A stretch of DNA of 53,151 nt, taken from positions 1 through 53,151 of the forward strand of contig JABJMO010000022.1 in the NCBI GenBank assembly GCA_018659375.1, read 5' to 3'. Position numbers and translations under genes: made by a program. Within the stretch, counting starts at the first letter, position 1, and each line of letters starts with the position of its first letter. The stretch is from Methanobacteriota archaeon (lineage in GTDB: Archaea > Thermoplasmatota > Poseidoniia > Poseidoniales > Poseidoniaceae). The notes beneath the pieces were generated by a model. The model did no database searches, was not told where the DNA came from, and saw only the letters and a program-made list of their open reading frames with translations. This document shows positions 3,932-42,647 of the stretch, piece by piece.

Positions 3932-6900
3932 ATGGCAAGGAAAAATATTGGGAAATCGCTTATCGCAAATGTGTTGATTATTGTTCTGATAATAGGTTCC
4001 TTTTCCTCAATTAATTTAAATGAAAAGAGCACTAATCATAAACTGCTTGAAGATAATTTCGAAGATCTACCCAAGATGTTTAGTCAAAGAAACTCCAATG
4101 ATTGGTCAGCATCCGGTAGTGCTCCTAACCCTGTAGTAGCAATGGCCATTGATACATCATCAAACAACGAAATAGTAGCAGCAGGAGTCATTAGCGGATC
4201 TACAACTATGTCTATTGGCTCAGCATCGATTACATCAGGTCAATATGTAGAACCATGGATTGCTAAAGCGGACAGCAACGGAAACTGGCAATGGATAGAA
4301 AAAATTTCTATTACTGGTACGTCACAATATGCCGAAGCTTCCATTACGGATATTTCAGTTGCTGCGAATGGTGACATCTTTGCAACAGGTATGTTTTACG
4401 AGTCTATAGCGTTTGGTAGTATTGTACTGACTTCAACAGGATATTGGGATTGCTGGACTGCAAAGTTATCATCTTCAGGGCAGTGGCAATGGGCTGAATC
4501 GCTTAGAGGCGATGGAGATTATGACGGAGTCACTGTAACGACTTTAGACGTTGTCTATGGGACTTCCATTACCACAGATTCTAATTCAAATCCGATCATT
4601 GGTGGATTCTTTTTAGGTAATACGGATGTTGGTGTAGCTGCAGATACAGGTGCACAAAACGGAGACGACATCGAGATTTTCGTGGCTAAATATTCCAACT
4701 CCGGTAATTTAGAATGGACTGAAGTTGCCAGAGGACAAGGAATCCAAGAAGTTAACAGTATGGCTGTTGATAGCAGCAATAATATTTGGATTTCAACAAC
4801 CTTCGAAGTAAGTATGACTTTTGGTAGCGTTGTTGCCAATGCGGGAATTAACGAAATACCTGTCGGCATTGCAATGATTACTAACTCTGGGAGTTGGCAA
4901 TCAGCCTACGCAACTGCGGGTAGTGGACAAGCATCAATTACTGATTTTGAAATAGACGACCAAAATAATATCTTGATGACTGGATTTCACAGTGGTAGTG
5001 TTACCTTTGGCACTCAATTAACTAATGCAGGTCAAAGTGATGCACTAATTGCCAGTATGTCTCCTTCAGGGGCTTGGAATTGGGCAAAATCAATTGGTGG
5101 CAGTAGTTATGATGTTGGTTCTGGAGTAGCATACGACTCGGATACAGGATATACGATGATGGGATTATCATCCCAAAGTTCCTTTTCTTTTGGGGGTAAA
5201 AGTTTCACACCTCGGGGATTAAATGATTCATTAGTAGTAAGTTTTGATTCGAATGGTGGCTCAGTCTCTTTATTTGACGCAGGCAGTGCTGACGATGATG
5301 GAGTTGCTGGAATTTCTCTTATGCCAAATGGTGCGCTGGTAGTTGTTGGTAATTACAACGGAACTATTGATTTTGGTACTTCAAGTGCGCCTACACAAAC
5401 AACGTCAGTTTTGATGCCATATGTTTGGCTAACTGAAACTATAGCAGTGTTAGACGCAGATGGTGATGGAGTTGCAGACGAAGATGATAATTGTCCAAAC
5501 ATTGCTAATCCTGGCCAAGAAAATACCGATCTTGATTCAGAAGGTGATGCTTGTGATTCAGATGATGATAATGACGGAATAACTGATAATTTCCCGGATA
5601 ACTGTCCAAGAAATAGCCAAACAGGATGGACTAGTACCAGAGATTTCAACGATCCTGCTAGTTCTACTGATTGGGATAATGATGGTTGTAAAGATGACCA
5701 TCCTGAGGATAATGATGATGATAATGATGGAGTATTAGATGTAGACGATACTTGTCCAAGAACCTCATTTAACCCACCTCGACCGACATGGATATCAGAA
5801 CTTGGAACTGATATGGATGGAGATGGCTGCCGTGATAGCGATGAGGATTTGAATGATGATGGGGATGATTTTGATGACTCATTTGATGACTGTCCAACAT
5901 ATTACGGTACATCTACTCAAGGTGAACAGGGTTGTGCTGATTCAGATCAAGACTCATGGTCTGATAATAGCGATACATGCCCTTTGCAACCGGGTAACTC
6001 TACAGAAAATGGTAAAATAGGCTGTCTTGATTCTGATGGTGATGGATGGGCAAATGTAGATGATGCATTTGATTATGAACCGTCCCAGTGGTTGGATTCA
6101 GATGGTGATGGGTTTGGCGATAATGCTGCAGGTCTTAACCCAGATGATTGTCTAGAGATATCTGGTGATTCACTTTACGACCGACTGGGTTGTTACGATT
6201 TTGATGGCGATGGTTACTCAAACCCTGAAGGTAATTGGGATTCTGATAATGGTGCCGACGCTTTCCCGGTGAATCCGTTACAGTGGTCTGATTTTGATGG
6301 CGATGGATTAGGTGATAATTGGGGTAACCTTTCATGGACGGACCGTCCTGAAGGATGGCCTGGTCAGTATGTCGAATCAATCGCCGAAAATGAACAAGAT
6401 ACTTGTCCACTACAGTTTGGAAATTCAAACCAAAACGGAGCATATGGCTGCCCAGACCTTGATGGGGATGGTTGGTATGATGCAATTGACAGTTTCATCA
6501 ACGAACCCAGCCAATGGGCGGATTCAGATGGTGATGGGTTTGGTGATAATCTAGATGGTTTTAATGGAGATTATTGTAAAGACATAGCTGGTGATTCTAC
6601 CGACGACCGTAAAGGTTGTATTGACAGTGATAGTGATGGTTACTCTGATACAGATGAATTTTGGACAAAATATAGTGGCGGAGATGTCTTTGCCCAAGAT
6701 GCAACACAATGGTCAGATATCGATGGTGATGGATATGGAGATAATCCGGGCTATCCATTGTCAGATGATTGTATAGAAGTTGCAGGAGATTCCTCAGTTG
6801 ATCGAACTGGATGCTCAGACTTTGATTCAGATGGTTTCTCAGATCCAACAAGTGGATGGGACCTTTCGTCTGGTGCAGATGCTTGTCCTAGTGTAATTGG

Positions 6901-7435: not shown

Positions 7436-8599
7436 TCAAGTTAATACTTCCAGCAACCTATCTTGCTCAGCAGCCATACGTAGTTCCATAGCGATTCTTC
7501 GACCACTAGACATTGGCTTTCTCCATGTGGCGTTACCGTATGGATGGCCAACATTAACGTGTACGTTGGTTCCACCACCTAATCTTGGAGCGACATCATA
7601 AATGTAGTAATTCATATCCTTATCGATACAGGTTTGAAGACAAAAGGGACCAATTATTCCAGGGTCATAATGCTCTTTGCTAGCTTTGATAAACTTCTCA
7701 CCAAGTTCGAATGCTTTCTCAAGTAATGATTCTCTAATAGTTGCTGTATTATGTCCTACGACAGTCATTTCAGGAATTTGTTGATGTATTGGCATTGTCA
7801 TTTGTTGCGGAGCTGGAAGTCGAACATGGCCGTCAAGCGATGATTCAAATCGCCAGTCAACACCTAAGAGTTCTAATTTCTCTCCCTCTTCTGCTAATGG
7901 GCTGTAAAAGAAGTTTAGATTAAACACTGGACCAATAACGTACCGTTCAATCCTAGCTCCATCAAGTGACGCTTGATCAATTACTCCTTCTTTGAGCAGT
8001 GCCTGAGATTTTTCACTATATTCAGTAAACGATGCACAGGTGAAGAAACCTCTTTCAAGTTTCTTTTGCGCATGATGTAATTTGACAATTACAAGACAGT
8101 CAATATCTTCTGGATGGCTTATTGCCTCTGGAAATGGGAGGCCGGCTTTTTCCAAGATCCAGTAATAATCTTGCTCTTCAGTTCTTTCTTCCATTCGCAA
8201 CATATTTCTAGAACCAAATAATGGAACTTTGAAAGTATTTTCAACATCGTCAATTGTCGAATATGAAGTAAATGAACGGTTTGGAATATATACCACATTT
8301 CTTTTACGCATCTCTGTTTGCATATCGGGATTCATAACGTCATTAAATGAGGACATTATGATGCTTTTGTCAACCATTCCTCTTACAACTCTGCCAGAAT
8401 TAGTTCGATGTGTTTTGAAATAATTAGCGTAGGTTTTGTGACGTCCTTCTTTGCAGTATGCTACTGTGGGGAATCCTTCTTCAATTGCTCCATCACATAT
8501 ATCCAATGCAGAGTGCGAGGCAGTCATACCAATTCGCAGTTTAAGTCGGTCATAGTTGTCAACAATTTGAGCAACTTCTTCCCGATTAATCATGGTCAC
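7436..8599 (-). CDS. purP: 5-formaminoimidazole-4-carboxamide ribotide synthetase (PurP-type)
   Basis: Archaeal formate-dependent enzyme making FAICAR from AICAR, ATP and formate, the second-last step to IMP. The 387-residue product fits the family (about 360). It shows the PurP N-terminal TASHSALDICDGA and KEGRHKTYANYF, then an ATP-grasp body with VIVKLHHAQKKLERGFF, and the C-terminal APRLGGGTNVHVNVGHPY block. The start may be ATG 8599 or the second methionine two codons in. It runs convergent with the surface gene, 57 bases apart. PurP replaces bacterial PurH transformylase in many archaea, supporting the archaeal assignment. Substrate inferred from family. Confidence 0.92.
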   Translation of the reverse strand: MTMINREEVAQIVDNYDRLKLRIGMTASHSALDICDGAIEEGFPTVAYCKEGRHKTYANYFKTHRTNSGRVVRGMVDKSIIMSSFNDVMNPDMQTEMRKRNVVYIPNRSFTSYSTIDDVENTFKVPLFGSRNMLRMEERTEEQDYYWILEKAGLPFPEAISHPEDIDCLVIVKLHHAQKKLERGFFTCASFTEYSEKSQALLKEGVIDQASLDGARIERYVIGPVFNLNFFYSPLAEEGEKLELLGVDWRFESSLDGHVRLPAPQQMTMPIHQQIPEMTVVGHNTATIRESLLEKAFELGEKFIKASKEHYDPGIIGPFCLQTCIDKDMNYYIYDVAPRLGGGTNVHVNVGHPYGNATWRKPMSSGRRIAMELRMAAEQDRLLEVLT

Positions 8600-8642: not shown

Positions 8643-9521
8643 TCAGTCAAATTTCTGTAATTGCATAAGTTCTTCAGTAGATAATGTGTCTCCTGACATA
8701 AGTTTGCTCATCAAATCTTGAACTTGAACTCTTGCTCCAGATTTACCTTTTCCGTTACTAATACCAGACATTGCTGATAACATATCTTGAGCAGAGTGTA
8801 AACAACGAAGAGATACTATGTACAAATGGTGTGCTTTGTCAGCTTCTTTCTTTGACTTACGTAATTCTCTGTGGCATGATTCAGCCTTTTCTCTTTGCTT
8901 GTCAACTTCTTTGTTCCACTGAAGCATCAGTTCATGTGCTTCTTGAGCAGCATTAGCTGCGTTTTGTACTTCTTCGTGTGCTTCCTCTTGTTCTGCTAAG
9001 GCAGCCCTTAAGTCATCTCGAAGCGATGTCATATCGTCGTTTTTATCATCAACAGAGTTCATCTTTTTGAGTAAAGAACTGATTTCTTTCATTCTTTTCA
9101 TGACTTTAGTTTCGTTTTTACCAGTGTGTCGGCCTTGCTCAAACTCTCTTTCGAGTCTCTGAAGTTCACGCTTTAGTGTGTGTGGCGTGACCGGTTTCTG
9201 GCCTCTTCGACCTCTTTGATTATCTTGTTCTGGAGCACCGCCTCTTGATACATCAAGTTTAGACTTAATGTCCTTTACTTTGACGTTTGCATCTTGTCGA
9301 ATTTGCTTCTTTTCTCTAACCAATTCGTTCATCTGCTCTCGAATATCTCTTTGCTCACGAACTTGAACAATTAATTCTTTAACTTCCCCATTGAGTTCAT
9401 TTCTAGCGGTTGAATGGGTTTTTGACTTCTTATTCCACTCATCTCGTGTTTCACGAAAAGCTGTCGCTTTTTCGTTAACCATATTCTTCTTTTCTTCGAG
9501 AACTTGACTGATTTCTGCCAT
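8643..9521 (-). CDS. COG1340-type coiled-coil protein with C-terminal SGDTLSTEEL motif
   Basis: 292-residue protein that is almost wholly charged heptad coiled coil, rich in E/K/R/Q, of the archaeal COG1340 kind. I prefer ATG 9521 (MAEISQVLEEKK) because GGTGAG lies just upstream; an in-frame start at 9554 adds 11 unlike residues. A glycine-rich hinge at about residues 92-105 breaks the coil. The last 17 or so residues (KLMSGDTLSTEELMQLQ) form a compact motif also seen near the C terminus of the nucleotidyltransferase at 10483-12546. No catalytic motif is visible. Function unknown; the shared motif suggests a common partner. Confidence 0.75.
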   Translation of the reverse strand: MAEISQVLEEKKNMVNEKATAFRETRDEWNKKSKTHSTARNELNGEVKELIVQVREQRDIREQMNELVREKKQIRQDANVKVKDIKSKLDVSRGGAPEQDNQRGRRGQKPVTPHTLKRELQRLEREFEQGRHTGKNETKVMKRMKEISSLLKKMNSVDDKNDDMTSLRDDLRAALAEQEEAHEEVQNAANAAQEAHELMLQWNKEVDKQREKAESCHRELRKSKKEADKAHHLYIVSLRCLHSAQDMLSAMSGISNGKGKSGARVQVQDLMSKLMSGDTLSTEELMQLQKFD

Positions 9522-9626
9522 TGAAAAACTCACCTTGTTGTGTAAGATTCTCACCTTACACTCCCTTGCGACTGATATCCCCCATTTAATGCTTGATATT
9601 TTGCATTGCGCACAGAACTAATCAAC

Positions 9627-9959
9627 TTATCTTGAACTTGCCTTGAGGTAGGCATTCAGTCTGTCGGTGGCGGCGGATATTTGATGCCTTATTGCGCCAA
9701 GATTACACTTTGCTAAACAAAACGCGATGAGGGTGTAGTTTCTCTCTAGTTTATGCACCAGAATAATATGTTTATCAGTTATCAAGGTAGTTGATTGAAA
9801 TTCTTTGGAATTGTTTAGATTATTACCCAACTGTGACATCAGGTGATTGTTTTTTTCTTGATTTGGTTCGATTGCTTTGACAAAACCATCCCCATCAAGT
9901 AGAGCAACGCTCTGGATATCCTTTGACTCGCACAAGTCAGACACCACAAACTCTTCCAT
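9627..9959 (-). CDS. Roadblock/LC7-domain protein
   Basis: 110-residue single-domain protein. VALLDGDGFVKAI near the N terminus, the central TTLITDKHIILVHKLERNYTLIAF strands and the closing amphipathic helix match the roadblock/LC7 fold (helix, two strands, helix, three strands, helix). In bacteria and archaea such proteins usually bind small GTPases or act as dimeric scaffolds. No GTPase gene lies nearby. It follows the GNAT gene by 29 bases but has its own TATA-like element at about -25 to -30 from its ATG and no Shine-Dalgarno, so it may be made from a leaderless mRNA. Fold fairly likely; partner unknown. Confidence 0.65.
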   Translation of the reverse strand: MEEFVVSDLCESKDIQSVALLDGDGFVKAIEPNQEKNNHLMSQLGNNLNNSKEFQSTTLITDKHIILVHKLERNYTLIAFCLAKCNLGAIRHQISAATDRLNAYLKASSR

Positions 9960-9980: not shown

Positions 9981-9993
9981 GTATAATTTTATA
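9981..9993 (-). promoter_or_regulatory. TATA-like element upstream of the roadblock gene
   Basis: On the minus strand this reads TATAAAATTATAC, centred 25-30 bases before ATG 9959, the usual archaeal TATA-to-start distance. The start codon lacks a Shine-Dalgarno, which fits a leaderless transcript. It overlaps the end of the GNAT gene. Confidence 0.4.
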
Positions 9994-10465
9994 CTGTTCC
10001 CACCATCATATATCCATCTTCATCAGCGTAGTAATTATCGATAGTCTGTTGGATATTTAGCCCAAAACGTTGGTAAAATTTTTGAGCCCTTAGATTTGAC
10101 ACCCGTACTTCCAATTGAATTGTATTTCTTTCAATTTCTCTTGATGTTGTGAATAATTCTTTAATCACTTTGGTTCCAAGACCTTGCCCCTGATATTGCT
10201 TTTCAATTACTAACGCAACGATTCTCACTCTGTCATCAAATATTTGTTTTGACCACAAAACTCCAATCAATGATTTTGGATGGGGGTAATCTTGATGATT
10301 GATCAGTAGACGATTACCATTCCATTCAGGTATTTGCAGCATTCGGAAAGTGGAATCTGTGTATGATTCCCCAGTCTCCTGCTTGAACAATTGACTAATT
10401 CTTAACTTCCAGGTTTCAGGCATATCTTCAGGTTTTGGACCTAGAATCCATGAAATATTACTCAT
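9989..10465 (-). CDS. GNAT-family N-acetyltransferase (RimI-like)
   Basis: 158-residue GCN5-related acetyltransferase. The acetyl-CoA loop QGQGLGTKVIKEL (Q/RxxGxG/A) lies after the VRIVALVIEKQY strand, and the C-terminal EVRVSNLRAQKFYQRFGL with a closing YY...DGYMM resembles RimI-type N-terminal acetyltransferases. A strong Shine-Dalgarno (AGGAGGTG) sits about 5 bases before ATG 10465. The upstream nucleotidyltransferase stops only 17 bases away, so they are probably cotranscribed. The substrate is not predictable; a protein or ribosomal target is possible. Confidence 0.85.
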   Translation of the reverse strand: MSNISWILGPKPEDMPETWKLRISQLFKQETGESYTDSTFRMLQIPEWNGNRLLINHQDYPHPKSLIGVLWSKQIFDDRVRIVALVIEKQYQGQGLGTKVIKELFTTSREIERNTIQLEVRVSNLRAQKFYQRFGLNIQQTIDNYYADEDGYMMVGTV

Positions 10466-10482: not shown

Positions 10483-12546
10483 TTATTGATTTTTAGAAGA
10501 TTTACCTCTTTTACCTCTTTGAGGAGTAACGGAATGATTATTTTTTTTGTGCTTATTTTTACCCTTTCTGTGGGTTGCTTTGGTTTTATTCACGGAACTT
10601 AACCCACCGTTTTTCAATAAAACCTCTAAGTCTTGCAAAGAGAAAGAATCCCCAGAAACAACTTTACTTTTTACCGCATTCACTTTAACATTGTCAACGG
10701 ATTTTTTTCTCTTTCCTTTATTTCTAGAATGTTTGTTATTATTAAAGTGGGTCTGTTTCCTGAGCCAAGCCTCAAGGCGACCAATTTCTCTCCTCAAGTT
10801 TCTGCGCTCTCTTTTGAGTGGATTTAGTTCCTTTAGCAATTTCATTGCCAAGTCATCAAAATCAGTAAACTTTCCAAAAGATTGAATTTCTATCATTTCT
10901 TGTCTGATATCTTTGATATGCTCAATTGAATGTTGCTGTTGTTCTAATAACTTCAAAAATTCTCGATGATATTTTCGAGCCAGTTTGGAGTGTTCATACA
11001 TACTTTGAAGTTCAAAGAACCAAGAAAACATTTGTTTTTCTTTTTCTAGGCTCAGTTCTACTCGATTTGTGTTTTCAGTTGTCAATATCGAATACACTCT
11101 GGAGAGCTCTTCTTCAATGAAATGTACTGGTATGTAATGATTGTTTGAGGAATCTCGCTTACTTTGCAATTCATCAATTTTTGAACGTCTTGGCCTTAGT
11201 TCTGAAGACAAACCAGATTGTTCCTTAGCTAACTCAGCATTTCTTCGCAATGCTTTGGACATTTTGATCGCATCATTACGTTCACTTTCCCTTACCAGAA
11301 CACTCTTTTCAACCTGTTTTAGTTGTTCATACAGTATTTTTAAATCATGCTTAGTTTTGTCGTCATTTTGGTTTCTTAAATCTTCAAATAAGTCAAGTTT
11401 TGGTTTGTTGGGTGTTATTTCAGGGTATTTAATTTCAGTGATTATACTCCAATTAGTATTTTTTGAAATCAATTGATAAGCCCTTATAACTTCGTCTCTT
11501 ATTTCAAAAACACCCTCGACGTCAAGTACTCTACTCAAATCATGTTTGTTGTCGAATGGGTCTTCAACGGGTAGTGCGAATTTGCCAAGTCGCTTTATCT
11601 CGGGATCTTGTATAGCGTCGCTAACGTACGGTTTAGTAGCAACCCAATTCTTTTCCTTTCGGGTTAATATTTTTCCAGATCCTACAGATATCACTCCATT
11701 ATTCCATGGCCAATCTTTGGCCAGTACCTCAAAGAATCCACTCACCAATTCTCCAATATTAGACTTGTTTAGAGTGGTGAAATGTAATTCTTCATCCAGA
11801 AACATCCCGATGTCATAGTTTGTACCGTCGATATCAACTGTATCGGAGTCATCTTTTTTCAACAAATTTGGTAGGACTTCCTGCTCTAATGATTGAAGAT
11901 AATTAATCGCAATTAAGGTCCATGCATAGGAAGAAAACGTACCCATGGCCGCATCTGAAATTCCACGGTTTCTTGCCCAATATTTGATTGAAATAATGAA
12001 CGGTTTCACTCTAGAATCTAATGCTGAGTATCTACGTAGTAATTCAGTATTGTGAACGGCGAGACTGTTATTTATCGAAATATCGACAGGGATTTTTGAT
12101 TGGCTATCAATAAATTTGACAATCGGTACTTTTGCAGTCGTAATTAATGTTACATTATCCATGCCATCTTCATTAAGCATTCTCGCAATCTTCTTTAGAA
12201 CTTTTTTGGGCTTTTCTCCGTTGAATTGCAAACATAGGTCGATGTCACCATTGATTAAACTAAGGCCCGATTCAAAGGAACCAAAGGTAGTGACCGTAGA
12301 ACCTCGGAACTTATTTGTTAGTACTTTTGTCAAATGTTTGGTAATACCATTTCTCCGCTTCATCAAGTTATCAGAAGTTTTCTGACTAGAGGCAAATTTC
12401 TTAATTTCTGTGTCTAGGTGATTCGTATTTTCGACAACTAAACTTATCTTTGATAAATCTAAACTTCCAACCTTCAAAGCCGTGACGAAAGGCCAAGATT
12501 CAATCTTGCCGATATCAAAATCTATTCGTTCAAAGTCAGCAAGCAA
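10483..12546 (-). CDS. Cid1/TUT-like terminal nucleotidyltransferase with coiled-coil C-terminal half
   Basis: 687-residue protein closely resembling eukaryotic non-canonical poly(A)/poly(U) polymerases. The Pol-beta-type catalytic motif is TFGSFESG...DIDL with G89, S90, D101 and D103; the third carboxylate is D155 in IPVDISINNSLAVHN. Then come KPFIISIKYWARNRGI and GTFSSYAW (central domain) and a PAP-associated block including IGELVSGFFEVLA, SVGSGKILTRKEKNW and VEDPFDNKHDLSRV. H335 aligns with fission yeast Cid1 His336, which favours UTP. Residues about 390-600 are coiled coil; a motif like the COG1340 C terminus and a lysine/arginine-rich tail follow. The likely start is TTG 12546, one base after the upstream stop and behind AGGGGGG. 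Expected activity: adding U (or A) to RNA 3' ends. Confidence 0.85.
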   Translation of the reverse strand: MLADFERIDFDIGKIESWPFVTALKVGSLDLSKISLVVENTNHLDTEIKKFASSQKTSDNLMKRRNGITKHLTKVLTNKFRGSTVTTFGSFESGLSLINGDIDLCLQFNGEKPKKVLKKIARMLNEDGMDNVTLITTAKVPIVKFIDSQSKIPVDISINNSLAVHNTELLRRYSALDSRVKPFIISIKYWARNRGISDAAMGTFSSYAWTLIAINYLQSLEQEVLPNLLKKDDSDTVDIDGTNYDIGMFLDEELHFTTLNKSNIGELVSGFFEVLAKDWPWNNGVISVGSGKILTRKEKNWVATKPYVSDAIQDPEIKRLGKFALPVEDPFDNKHDLSRVLDVEGVFEIRDEVIRAYQLISKNTNWSIITEIKYPEITPNKPKLDLFEDLRNQNDDKTKHDLKILYEQLKQVEKSVLVRESERNDAIKMSKALRRNAELAKEQSGLSSELRPRRSKIDELQSKRDSSNNHYIPVHFIEEELSRVYSILTTENTNRVELSLEKEKQMFSWFFELQSMYEHSKLARKYHREFLKLLEQQQHSIEHIKDIRQEMIEIQSFGKFTDFDDLAMKLLKELNPLKRERRNLRREIGRLEAWLRKQTHFNNNKHSRNKGKRKKSVDNVKVNAVKSKVVSGDSFSLQDLEVLLKNGGLSSVNKTKATHRKGKNKHKKNNHSVTPQRGKRGKSSKNQ

Positions 12547-12547
12547 C

Positions 12548-13270
12548 TTATGCCCCCCTGGTCATATTTTTCTTTCGATTAGTACGGTGTATTTGTCTAC
12601 TAGACGGTCCACCATCTGCAACCCTTTTGGCGTCAACTAACAATTCTTCAAAACCGTCATTAAGTCTTGATTGCCAGAATTCAGCAGCAGTTTTTGACTC
12701 AGCTAATGATGATGTTAACTTAGTAAATCTCGATTCCAATTTCCTACGATGACCTTCCGCTTTATTCCATTCTTGTACTAAGGTCAAGTAAATTGGGTTT
12801 AGTTCACCTAGGGCAGTGTTTGCTTTGTTCGATTGAATTAATTTGGCGGAAAGAGGACCATTTGACTCCAAAAGGGTAACGACTTCCGACAACTTTTCCA
12901 AGTTTTCATTAAACTCTTCAACACTAGCGTCAGCAATTGATAGTGCTTCGATTATCTGCGATAATTCTAGTTGTTGCTCTTTTTTGAGATGTTCTATCGG
13001 GGATTCTTGTTTAAGCGCCTGAGTGACTACCTTCCTTTCCATTTTAAGGGCAGAGATTTTACTCTCTAAATTTTCTTTATTACTACGCACTTGTCGAGCA
13101 ATTTTTTCAGCAGTATGCTTTTGATCACCTGTTTGCGATAATAATTGAGGTAGTGATTGAGTGATTCTTTCACGCTTGTGAAGTATCAATTTTGTGAGGA
13201 CTTCTGTTCTCACCGCCATCAGGTCCTCGGGTGTCACGCCTCGGTGGTAAAATTCAATGTTGAAAAACAT
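12548..13270 (-). CDS. Coiled-coil protein cotranscribed with the nucleotidyltransferase
   Basis: 240-residue mostly coiled-coil protein, no recognisable enzyme motif. It ends in a basic tail (RTNRKKNMTRGA) similar in flavour to the tail of the coiled-coil protein at 18203-19201 (KKKNMRRVDVSRRR). Its stop is one base before the nucleotidyltransferase start, so the two are almost certainly translated together and may bind each other. The start is uncertain: ATG 13270 lacks a Shine-Dalgarno and would be leaderless, while ATG 13219 (MAVRTEVL) has GAGG six bases before it. Function unknown; scaffold or RNA-binding partner is an inference. Confidence 0.75.
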   Translation of the reverse strand: MFFNIEFYHRGVTPEDLMAVRTEVLTKLILHKRERITQSLPQLLSQTGDQKHTAEKIARQVRSNKENLESKISALKMERKVVTQALKQESPIEHLKKEQQLELSQIIEALSIADASVEEFNENLEKLSEVVTLLESNGPLSAKLIQSNKANTALGELNPIYLTLVQEWNKAEGHRRKLESRFTKLTSSLAESKTAAEFWQSRLNDGFEELLVDAKRVADGGPSSRQIHRTNRKKNMTRGA

Positions 13271-18202: not shown

Positions 18203-19201
18203 ATGCGCGGGAAGTTGAATGAGGGCGAAGAAACGCCGGACGCTGAACTTCGTGACAAGCTCCATGCAATGGAGTCCAGAGTTCGTAAGATGAAAGAAAC
18301 TCGTAACAATTTCAATGCTCAGGCTAAGGTTTCAGCAGAAAAGAGAAATTCAGTACAGTCTCAGTATAAGGAACATCGAGAGAAAATTGAACTATTTGTG
18401 GCAGAAGTAAGAGCCATGCGTGCTGAAATAAAATCCTTTAAAGAAAAGCGTAATGCCATCCAAAGTCAAATGCGTGACTTAATTTCACAAATTAAGGGTA
18501 AAAGAAAAGATCGCACCGAAAAGCGTTCAGCCACAGCAGAATATGCTGATTTGAAGCAACAAGTAGACGCTCTTGAAAAGAGATTTGAGACCACTTCTGT
18601 TGGTGTGAATAAGGAAAAAGAAATGGTTAAGAAAATCAAAGAATTTTCTAAGAGAATTGAAGAACTAGAGCCTGAAGTGACCAAGTTCAAAATGGTTGAA
18701 GTAGATATGTCAGATATCGATTCTGCCATTAAAACCCTCAAAGCCGAGGCAGACGCAGCTCACAATTCAATGATTGAAGCGGTAGAGAGACTAAATGCCA
18801 AAACACCAGAAGTCGATGAGGCATTTGTTCACCGTGATTTCCTAAAGTCAGAAGGAGACAGGTTTCATACAGAATTTGTCGAACTTAAAGAAAAGGCTAA
18901 CGAAGTGCATGCAAAGATAGAGGAATTGATGGTTGATGTCAACAAAGCCAAAGATGAATTAAAATCTGTAAGGGAAGAAAGAAAATCTTGGTTGACAGAT
19001 CATAATTCATCGGTCAAGAAAGAGATGAAAACAGGCGCCCAGTCTGAAGAAGTTGCAGATTTACTTACTAATTCACTATTGTCCAATGGCTCTATTACAT
19101 TTGGTGGATTGAGTAACGAAGATTTTGTTTCTAAATCTAAATCAAAGAAATCAGACAAAAAGAAAAACATGCGAAGAGTTGACGTTTCTAGAAGAAGATA
19201 G
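18203..19201 (+). CDS. COG1340-type coiled-coil protein
   Basis: 332-residue highly charged coiled-coil protein, clearly related in style to the protein at 8643-9521 (same N-terminal pattern of KMKETRNNFNAQ-type heptads, EVRAMRAEIKSFKEKRNAIQ, then a middle segment EKEMVKKIKEFSKRIEEL). A break near residues 90-100 again separates two coil halves. The C terminus differs: SNGSITFGGLSNEDF followed by a very basic end (KKNMRRVDVSRRR), suggesting nucleic-acid or ribosome contact. The next gene starts 8 bases after the stop. Function unknown; COG1340 proteins are broadly archaeal and poorly characterised. Confidence 0.75.
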   Translation: MRGKLNEGEETPDAELRDKLHAMESRVRKMKETRNNFNAQAKVSAEKRNSVQSQYKEHREKIELFVAEVRAMRAEIKSFKEKRNAIQSQMRDLISQIKGKRKDRTEKRSATAEYADLKQQVDALEKRFETTSVGVNKEKEMVKKIKEFSKRIEELEPEVTKFKMVEVDMSDIDSAIKTLKAEADAAHNSMIEAVERLNAKTPEVDEAFVHRDFLKSEGDRFHTEFVELKEKANEVHAKIEELMVDVNKAKDELKSVREERKSWLTDHNSSVKKEMKTGAQSEEVADLLTNSLLSNGSITFGGLSNEDFVSKSKSKKSDKKKNMRRVDVSRRR

Positions 19202-22351: not shown

Positions 22352-22440
22352 ACTACCCCGGAAGGCTGGTTGTTGAAGAGTTTTGTTGAATATTATCAAT
22401 TATTTACTACTCCCTGCAATAGTCCCTTTGAAATAGGGGG

Positions 22441-22486
22441 GGTTAGTCGGCAACTTGCAAGTGGGGTAGCCCCCGCAAGACTAACC
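22441..22486 (+). promoter_or_regulatory. Hairpin in the rps3ae leader
   Basis: Arms GGTTAGTC (22441-22448) and GACTAACC (22479-22486) are perfectly complementary. Inside them TTGC (22455-22458) pairs with GCAA (22475-22478), and GGGG (22463-22466) pairs with CCCC at 22470-22473, leaving a six-base bulge GGCAAC on the left. The structure ends 12 bases before ATG 22499, where a ribosome site would lie. A TATA-like TTATTTA near 22400 would start an RNA that includes it. It may regulate translation, but the function is inference. Confidence 0.55.
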
Positions 22487-22498
22487 GAGTTGATATCG

Positions 22499-23467
22499 AT
22501 GGCAAAGAAAGTGAGTGCAAAGGCACGTGCAGCAGCACGTAAACAGCGTGACAAGTGGAAGACAAAGAGATGGTACACTATTCGTGCACCAAGACATCCA
22601 TGGGATTTCAAGAATATCGGAGAAACGATCGGTGAGTCGGATGAGCACATTATGGGCAGAGTCTACGAAATGACTTTGCAAGAATTCAACGGTGACTTCA
22701 CTAAGATGCACGTTATTCTAAGGTTCCGTGTTGACGAATGTGTTGGACAAGATGCGCTAACAACTTTCATCGGTCATCACCACCAAACAGACCACATCAG
22801 AAGGCAAATCCGTAGATACCGCGGAAAGGTAGACGATGTCGTTGATGTAGTGACCACAGACGGTTATTTGGTTAGACTAAAACCATTGATTATTACTCAG
22901 AAAAGAGTTCAAACATCAGTTAAGCAAGTTATGCGCTCTAAGACGAGAGATCTACTTCTCGGCTTTGCCGCAAAGAACACCTACGCTAAGTTACAAGAAG
23001 CAATTCTAGGTGGAGAACTTGAAGAAGATGTAAGAAAAGCGGTAAAACCAATCTATCCTATTAAATCCATTTCTATTAGGAAGAGTCAATTGTTACAAAC
23101 TGGTGTAGTAAATGAAAAAGGTCCAACCCTCGATGAAATTCATGCAGAAGAGGCTAAAACAGCTTCAGAACTGAAGGCTAAGAAAGCAGCTGCTCTAGCA
23201 GCAGCCATGGAAGATGAAGAAGAAGCAGAAGCAACTCCTTCGATTCTAGATGCAGCAGAAGCCATGGAACCAGAATCTGAAAAATCGAATGAGGTTGTAG
23301 AAGAAGCACCTGAGGTTGAAGAAACCAAAGAAGTAGCACAAGAAGATGCAACAGAATCAGTTGACCATAGCAGTATGTCAGTGGCAGAACTGAAAGAACT
23401 CCTAAAGGCTGCTGGAAAGCCAGTATCAGGAAAGAAAGCAGATTTGATAGCCCGACTAGAGGAATAA
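22499..23467 (+). CDS. rps3ae: Ribosomal protein S3ae (eS1) with C-terminal SAP domain
   Basis: Small-subunit ribosomal protein eS1, 322 residues. The conserved core runs from KTKRWYTIRAPRHPWDFKNIG through EMTLQEFNGDFTKMHV, DHIRRQIRRYRGKVDDVVDV and PIYPIKSISIRKSQLL to about residue 205. An acidic A/E-rich linker of about 80 residues follows, and residues 292-322 form a SAP-like nucleic-acid-binding helix-turn-helix (SVAELKELLKAAGKPVSGKK). Typical archaeal S3ae is about 200-220 residues and lacks this domain. ATG 22499 gives the normal N terminus and lies just after a structured leader; no Shine-Dalgarno is visible. Ribosomal identity secure. Confidence 0.93.
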   Translation: MAKKVSAKARAAARKQRDKWKTKRWYTIRAPRHPWDFKNIGETIGESDEHIMGRVYEMTLQEFNGDFTKMHVILRFRVDECVGQDALTTFIGHHHQTDHIRRQIRRYRGKVDDVVDVVTTDGYLVRLKPLIITQKRVQTSVKQVMRSKTRDLLLGFAAKNTYAKLQEAILGGELEEDVRKAVKPIYPIKSISIRKSQLLQTGVVNEKGPTLDEIHAEEAKTASELKAKKAAALAAAMEDEEEAEATPSILDAAEAMEPESEKSNEVVEEAPEVEETKEVAQEDATESVDHSSMSVAELKELLKAAGKPVSGKKADLIARLEE

Positions 23468-35154: not shown

Positions 35155-35232
35155 GGGCGTATGGGTTAGTTTGGCCTATACTCGGGCGTTTGGGACGCTT
35201 GGACCCAAGTTCAAATCTTGGTACGCCCACCA
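35155..35232 (+). tRNA. tRNA-Pro (anticodon UGG), CCA encoded
   Basis: Acceptor GGGCGTA (35155-35161) pairs with TACGCCC (35222-35228), discriminator A at 35229. T arm CCAAG-TTCAAAT-CTTGG, anticodon stem GGGCG/CGCTT with two G-U pairs, loop TTTGGGA giving anticodon TGG. The D arm is short with a T-T mismatch at 13-22. The sequence continues with CCA at 35230-35232, so the 3' end is encoded. Only two bases separate it from the end of the convergent parvulin gene. Confidence 0.93.
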
Positions 35233-42288: not shown

Positions 42289-42573
42289 ATGGGACAATTA
42301 TCTGTCACCGTTCGAGGTGATAGTATGTGGCCTACTCTAAAAAATGGCGATATTATCTGTTGTAGACCTTACAATGGTGAGGTCCTAGTCCCACAACAAA
42401 TCATCGTATTTCCCAGTCCGTTTGACTCAACAAATATTTTGATAAAACGCATCAAGTCAGTTCATGATGACTTTTTGTTTGTTGAAGGTGATAACCCAGA
42501 TCCCACCGCAAGTAGTGATTCACATAATTTTGGTAAAATTAAATCTTTTACTGTAATTGCAGTTTTTGATTAG
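42289..42573 (+). CDS. sodX: NiSOD maturation protease (S26-like, SodX)
   Basis: 94-residue soluble signal-peptidase-like protease. The catalytic serine is S12 in RGDSMWPTLKNGD and the general-base lysine K53 in ILIKRIKSV, then EGDNPDPTASSDS as in S26 peptidases. No transmembrane segment, as expected for SodX, which trims the NiSOD propeptide. ATG 42289 lies 4 bases after the sodN stop; an overlapping start at 42259 is less likely. The stop TAG (42571-42573) abuts the 3' end of tRNA-Lys on the other strand. Confidence 0.92.
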   Translation: MGQLSVTVRGDSMWPTLKNGDIICCRPYNGEVLVPQQIIVFPSPFDSTNILIKRIKSVHDDFLFVEGDNPDPTASSDSHNFGKIKSFTVIAVFD

Positions 42574-42647
42574 CGGGCCTGACGGGGTTCGAACCCGCGA
42601 CCGACGGATTAAGAGTCCGTCGCTCTACCTGACTAAGCTACAGGCCC
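42574..42647 (-). tRNA. tRNA-Lys (anticodon CUU), CCA not encoded
   Basis: Minus strand reads GGGCCTG...CAGGCCC acceptor with discriminator G at 42574, D arm GCTTAGTCAGGTAGAGC, anticodon stem ACGGA/TCCGT with loop CTCTTAA (anticodon CTT), and T arm GCGGG-TTCGAAC-CCCGT. Length 74. The bases beyond the discriminator are CTA, so CCA must be added by enzyme. A TATA-like element sits about 25 bases before the 5' end. Confidence 0.96.

Follow-up and report, generated by a model that had tools for sequence, protein, structure and literature searches.

How a gene for a Cid1/TUT-type terminal nucleotidyltransferase could come to stand in an archaeal operon, and what its product would do there, is the question raised by an open reading frame in a 53,151-nucleotide stretch of DNA from a member of the Poseidoniaceae (contig JABJMO010000022.1 of assembly GCA_018659375.1; this whole stretch, at its full length, is called the window below). 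RNA uridylation is treated as a eukaryotic process in the accessible parts of several reviews (PMC4442281, PMC6240794, PMC7988573). Literature that was mostly non-subscription, including the accessible parts of PMC11646218, PMC6240794, PMC4442281, PMC6461757 and PMC7988573, yielded no report of a TUT in archaea, and the terms sought on this subject are not mentioned in PMC6336850.

The enzyme family itself is already known; what is new is the architecture, the host and the range of active, dead and lost states in which the enzyme occurs. Here, we report an analysis of the gene, its neighbours and its relatives. We consider it likely that the protein is an active template-independent RNA 3' nucleotidyltransferase of the Cid1/TUT type, with a probable preference for UTP, and that the enzyme part was gained in the course of Poseidoniaceae evolution and joined to the N-terminal end of a coiled-coil protein already resident there. 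If it is catalytically intact, tail-based RNA control would extend to archaea, in an abundant surface-ocean group, and the locus would clearly exemplify the incorporation of a eukaryote-type RNA enzyme into an archaeal operon.

Domain architecture and predicted fold

The gene and the parts of its product are located as follows.

10483..12546 (-), TUT–coiled-coil fusion gene, 687 aa, TTG start
12025..12417 (-), nucleotidyltransferase palm with G89-S90, D101, D103 and D155 (PF22600, residues 44-174)
11542..11760 (-), PAP-associated domain PF03828 (residues 263-335), the last residue of which, H335, stands at the motif position of Cid1 His336
10486..11415 (-), C-terminal coiled-coil module and basic tail (residues 378-687), widespread in the order

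The TTG start codon lies one base past the stop of the upstream gene, with a GGGGGG run upstream. The original prediction had read a complete Cid1-family core from this frame, and G89, S90, D101, D103, D155, the FSSYAW element and the PAP-associated domain are all present in it, together with the motifs KPFIISIKYWARNRGI and EDPFDNKHDLSRV. The profile searches that it had proposed gave scores above the Pfam cut-offs throughout: 109.9 bits for the MTPAP-like palm PF22600 (cut-off 27, E 1.4e-31), 38.5 bits for the Cid1-family PAP_assoc domain PF03828, which follows the palm (cut-off 22.6), and 31.8 bits for NTP_transf_2, PF01909 (cut-off 21). NCBIfam gave no match for the protein.

Among PDB chains, the best relatives in phmmer searches were TUT7 (2.5e-48), URT1 (8e-45), TUT4 (2.6e-44), CutA (2e-40) and Cid1 (9.7e-39), and not CCA-adding enzymes; GLD2, Tut1, MTPAP and Trf4 scored below these five. 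The whole-chain totals of TUT4 and TUT7 are sums over two modules, and the best single module is that of URT1, with 156 bits versus 121 for the catalytic module of TUT7. With a profile of 12 relatives, the whole-chain order was TUT4, TUT7, URT1, CutA, Cid1 and GLD2. The AlphaFold2 model of the window protein (mean pLDDT 80.6) was compared by Foldseek, the structural check suggested at the outset, and gave TM values by target length of 0.90 to URT1 (7xs4_A), 0.89 to TUT7 (5w0o_B) and up to 0.88 to Cid1, within a range of 0.76-0.90 to the listed single-module chains of CutA, Cid1, URT1 and TUT7. Judged by its domains, residues and predicted fold, the product is a Cid1/TUT-type terminal nucleotidyltransferase, in agreement with the original prediction, and the residues and the predicted fold suggest that it is catalytically competent.

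Each of these enzymes also differs from the window protein. Arabidopsis URT1 has the same palm, central and PAP-associated domains and an EDPFxxxHDLxRV motif with the His, but does not match the archaeal coiled-coil module. S. pombe Cid1 represents the minimal TUT core with the UTP-selecting His336, whereas the archaeal protein is ~310 residues longer and the phmmer match to Cid1 stops near window residue 368. Although human TUT4 and TUT7 reach the top whole-chain scores, their chains are long and contain a second TUT module without the motif His. CutA from Aspergillus has the same fold, and its motif Arg recurs in a minority of the archaeal sequences, but it prefers C, according to the accessible part of PMC7498324, whereas the window protein carries His.

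Operon and host

The TUT gene lies second in an operon, the other members of which are listed here.

12548..13270 (-), coiled-coil protein, termed CC240 here, first operon gene
9989..10465 (-), GNAT acetyltransferase, RimI-like, operon member (72.7 bits, under the rimI cut-off of 86.4)
9627..9959 (-), Roadblock/LC7-like small protein, operon member (18 bits, under the Pfam cut-off of 23)
8643..9554 (-), DUF7121 coiled-coil protein, operon member
7436..8599 (-), PurP-type ligase, operon end (DUF1246 and DUF1297)

A scan of contigs by sequence patterns confirmed 111 relatives, and the best 80 of the 111 were analysed as loci. The order CC240, TUT, GNAT, Roadblock, DUF7121, PurP recurs in these best 80 loci, which come from many assemblies: CC240 was found in 78, a TUT ORF in 75, GNAT in 72, DUF7121 in 71, PurP in 62 and Roadblock in 57. 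Where CC240 (L023, L042) or a complete TUT ORF (L068, L078, L092, L094, L097) is wanting, the match lies near a contig end; the Roadblock gene is short and divergent and was missed even within longer loci. The operon is also found on the 2,064,136-base chromosome record CM001443.1 (L050). The genome that contains the window is archaeal by its nearest named relatives, and the best 80 of the 111 relatives are Poseidoniales or euryarchaeal by record, bar one. Owing to the recurrence of the operon and to the occurrence of PF03828 across the family, the TUT gene can be assigned to the archaeon, so that the unusual host named in the original prediction stands. The one deviating record (L096) is a contig labelled as a Rhodobiaceae bacterium that carries the Poseidoniales operon and clusters with the others in the operon tree; it is probably mis-binned.

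Further genes nearby, named without a family search, are those that we take to be RNA polymerase subunits and an L30e-like protein. With the RimI-like GNAT and the coiled-coil proteins, these putative neighbours fit an RNA or ribosome setting, which is not proof of one. Rfam gave no match at the gathering threshold between window positions 6000 and 20000.

The C-terminal coiled-coil module

The C-terminal module was found in 112 of the 115 genomes of the order, the exceptions being G062, G103 and G342. In a second family, f2, it stands alone (306-353 aa) and adjoins CC240 at all 12 loci read, with a weak CC240 match at one of them (L145), and the catalytic-core profile matched no ORF at these 12 loci. 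Outside the order, a phylum sample of 292 genomes gave weak matches in eight (best E 5.5e-7). Since the module is order-wide and stands by itself in f2, it was the enzyme part that joined a protein already present across the order; the C-terminal half is a separate module, older than the fusion, to which the TUT part was joined within one family, f1. From the record names and the accessible part of PMC6461757, we infer that f1 is Ca. Poseidoniaceae (IIa) and f2 is Ca. Thalassarchaeaceae (IIb).

A coiled-coil protein encoded elsewhere in the window proved to resemble this module.

18203..19201 (+), coiled-coil protein, termed CC332 here, with a DUF7121 match under the cut-off and a profile resembling the TUT C-terminal module

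The two were matched by hhalign at 97%, with reversed-sequence controls at 5% or less; profile comparison of the module with CC240 gave 26%, and CC332 is the one convincing profile match. Assignment of the C-terminal half to DUF7121 itself was considered and rejected: direct comparison with the family gave 2.8%, which is not significant, and the window TUT protein had no match to PF23435 (DUF7121) at E 0.1. The likeness to DUF7121 proteins thus runs through CC332. No convincing PDB relative was found for either the C-terminal module or the DUF7121 protein (best E 0.021 and 0.086).

In all, four coiled-coil proteins or modules lie within ~11 kb, at 8643-9554, 10486-11415, 12548-13270 and 18203-19201. 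Several of the coiled-coil family profiles match one another at 94-97% (reversed controls again 5% or less), and the four may constitute a paralogous set.

Distribution, degeneration and loss of the enzyme domain

PF03828 occurs once in the genome that contains the window, in 92 of the 145 genomes of its family (this genome counted) and in none of 14 control genomes. The search for TUT proteins covered the window's phylum by profile (389 genomes) and contigs by one pattern-limited scan; within the 389 genomes, strong matches to the catalytic profile (E 5e-54 or better) were confined to 50, every one in f1, and three genomes outside f1 matched weakly (E 1.4e-5 or worse). Two g1 genomes are without a match, and these absences look like assembly gaps: PurP stands at the contig start in G062, and the operon PurP was not found in G103.

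In f1 genera without a PF03828 match, the same operon slot is occupied in g2, g5, g6 and five g10 loci by a shorter ORF that can be aligned only to the C-terminal half; 11 of 15 g10 genomes have the short frame only. A further state is found in genus g7, which encodes a full-length protein with a dead TUT domain at both readable loci (L127:6151-8151 and L128:5342-7357), a third locus (L126) ending ahead of the gene. In the degenerate copy, D101 is replaced by Gly, D103 by Glu and D155 by Arg. The catalytic-core profile still matches the dead domain (E 6e-37 and 9e-32 per domain, Z 1000), no Pfam family does so at E 0.01, and its model (pLDDT 80.3) gives TM values of 0.63-0.79 to single-module chains of Cid1, URT1 and TUT7. 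As the g7 copies are predicted to keep the fold without the triad, it can be retained without catalysis.

The order of these events was approached through a midpoint-rooted tree of 88 rows, built from five operon genes by a quick method. One 79-row clade (100*) unites 74 TUT-form rows, the window among them, with five short-form g10 rows; since the latter stand beside TUT-keeping g10 and Poseidonia rows, they reflect loss. Genus g7 (dead), g2 with g6 (short) and g5 (short, on a long branch) fall outside this clade in an unsettled relative order, so that in g2, g5 and g6 the domain may have been lost or may have been absent from the start. Should g7 branch off outside the active clade, the TUT domain would be older than the g7 split. 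The tree of the catalytic domain speaks against this: in it, the g7 rows stand within the archaeal rows, beside the window (88/58), on a very long branch of 3.3, a position that could reflect long-branch attraction or a transfer into g7 at a later time.

Origin of the enzyme domain

In phmmer comparisons with URT1, the archaeal proteins (154-157 bits) scored like Cid1 (152-158), between CutA (211) and GLD2 (123-138), with Trf4 at 81; in those with Cid1, URT1 scored 158, two archaeal proteins 133-155, CutA 104 and GLD2 at most 93. These scores favour an origin inside the eukaryotic TUT group, a pattern that unequal rates could also yield. A maximum-likelihood tree of 21 rows, unrooted, splits the 15 archaeal from the six eukaryotic rows (97/98). 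Trf4 has a very long branch in this tree (3.5) and joins Cid1 weakly (74/78), and for this reason the tree does not establish in which direction the domain was transferred; a root between the archaeal and eukaryotic rows would fit it as well. Given how narrowly the enzyme domain is distributed, and that it is joined to a resident domain, we regard transfer from a eukaryote as the most parsimonious interpretation.

Catalytic residues, base selection and alternative explanations

A 15-row alignment shows no variation at G89, S90, D101, D103 and D155. Among 78 long rows, including the window, 75 retain the whole Asp triad (D101 is Asp in 76, D103 in 75, with one X and two Glu, and D155 in 76), and the two rows without any of the three Asp residues are the g7 copies. 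Most of the 78 rows came from a scan with patterns around EDPF and SSY, which inflates the apparent conservation there and at position 335, but not that of the triad; with this bias, position 335 is His in 69 of the 78 rows, the window protein among them. The nine remaining rows have Arg (five) or Leu, Val, Phe and Lys (one each), and two of the nine, those with Phe and Lys, are the degenerate g7 rows. The same motif contains His in URT1 and in the catalytic module of TUT4, and Arg in CutA (printed alignment). In Cid1, H336 selects UTP, and its replacement by Ala or Asn gives poly(A) activity (PMC4357723, accessible part); R557 of CutA occupies the matching position, and R557H raises U incorporation without making CutA a U enzyme (PMC7498324, accessible part). 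On the strength of H335 and these reports, the window protein is predicted to prefer U, and the relatives in the Arg minority may possibly prefer C or A.

The same residue bears on the rival reading of an active tailing enzyme that uses ATP, CTP or mixtures instead of UTP, like GLD2 or CutA. Five Arg rows and two non-degenerate rows with Leu or Val at position 335, as well as the Arg of CutA and the outcome of its R557H change, speak for such an enzyme; against it, the window protein has the His of URT1, TUT4 and most of the archaeal rows, and we regard it as unlikely. More improbable still is that the domain no longer tails RNA and instead binds nucleotides or RNA, or modifies another substrate such as signal nucleotides or proteins. 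The degenerate g7 copy and a weak match to the PADLOC oligonucleotide-cyclase profile (E 0.0014) point this way, but the full triad persists in nearly all long rows, and the similarity to RNA uridylyltransferases, exemplified by URT1, far exceeds that to the cyclase. A role in a defence system was dropped, as the PADLOC matches are weak only. tblastn in phage or plasmid records gave no match at E 0.01, and of 27 stretches in viral contigs that fitted a pattern, none was confirmed.

A tRNA CCA-adding enzyme in a lineage that lost the archaeal one is a further candidate, in which we place very little confidence. PF09249, the domain of the archaeal CCA enzyme, gave matches in 0 of 29 family genomes versus 4 of 14 controls, and the tRNA-Lys gene of the window has no encoded CCA. 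However, PF09249 is equally absent from the TUT-less genomes among the same 29, and 28 of them encode the bacterial-type PolyA_pol/CCA domain PF01743 (above the cut-off in 27), which makes CCA addition an unlikely task for the TUT; nor did the window protein match PF09249 at E 0.1. A eukaryotic contaminant or a chimeric assembly, which a eukaryote-type domain in a fragmented assembly of 80 contigs might bring to mind, has a negligible probability, given the same gene order in the best 80 of 111 loci, one of them in a chromosome record, and the fusion of the domain to an order-wide module; the recurrence of the operon gene order rules it out.

Proposed reaction and RNA-decay context

For the favoured active, probably UTP-preferring tailing enzyme, catalysis and the choice of UTP are argued by analogy with its relatives. 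D101, D103 and D155 would hold the metal ions, and H335, with D329, would read the incoming base. The coiled-coil module and basic tail might dock the enzyme on an RNA or RNP, short U tails would be added to the 3' end of a putative RNA target, and such tails could plausibly serve as entry points for 3'-5' decay, carried out by the archaeal exosome and by an RNase R-like exonuclease in genomes that encode one.

Candidate partners are encoded in these genomes. RNase_PH-domain genes, which we take to be of the exosome core type, occur in 92 of 96 family genomes, and the genome that contains the window has two adjacent ORFs of 244 and 263 aa. Its RNB-domain protein (L120, G000:C70) is closest to bacterial RNase R and then to Dis3L2; the adjoining ORFs, named without a family search, are presumably DnaJ-like and metal-ATPase-like. 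RNB was found in 47 of the 115 genomes of the order, namely 47 of 54 in TUT-form genera, 0 of 3 in other f1 and 0 of 58 in f2, the family of 48 genomes without a match having been deduced from the sample used to count the C-terminal module. Four g10 genomes without the TUT part keep RNB (G009, G025, G032 and G038), and the TUT occurs without an RNB match in three g11 genomes and in both genomes of g9. The coincidence of RNB and TUT therefore amounts to one clade, that is, one phylogenetic event, and is neither an independent correlation nor a strict co-variation. The LSM domain was found in 0 of 29 family genomes at E 0.001, with matches in 3 of 14 control genomes; U-tail decay thus seems to lack its Lsm branch.

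Tentatively, and with rather more doubt than confidence, we propose a wider picture of uridylation-driven RNA surveillance in archaea, in which a eukaryote-derived TUT, fused to an order-wide coiled-coil adaptor, would act beside an RNase R-like exonuclease and the exosome, in parallel with eukaryotic TUT–Dis3L2. Some lineages would have switched the base (Arg for His), one would keep a dead scaffold and others the adaptor alone. The original prediction took an archaeal system for RNA 3' uridylation or adenylation to be implied; this reaches beyond the evidence, as competence is read from residues and fold. Because active, possibly base-switched, dead and lost states occur on one resident adaptor, function can be tested across sister genera. 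The Poseidoniales coiled-coil operon, furthermore, gains its first functional handle: RNA.

Other features of the window and its genome

The PF01743 protein of this genome is encoded at G000:C45:14546-14911. Two tRNA genes of the window differ at their 3' ends: the tRNA-Pro gene (35155-35232) encodes the CCA end, and the tRNA-Lys gene (42573-42647) does not. The window also encodes a ribosomal S3Ae family protein with a C-terminal SAP domain (22370-23467) and a PPIC-type rotamase, parvulin-like, in this archaeal genome (35235-35564).
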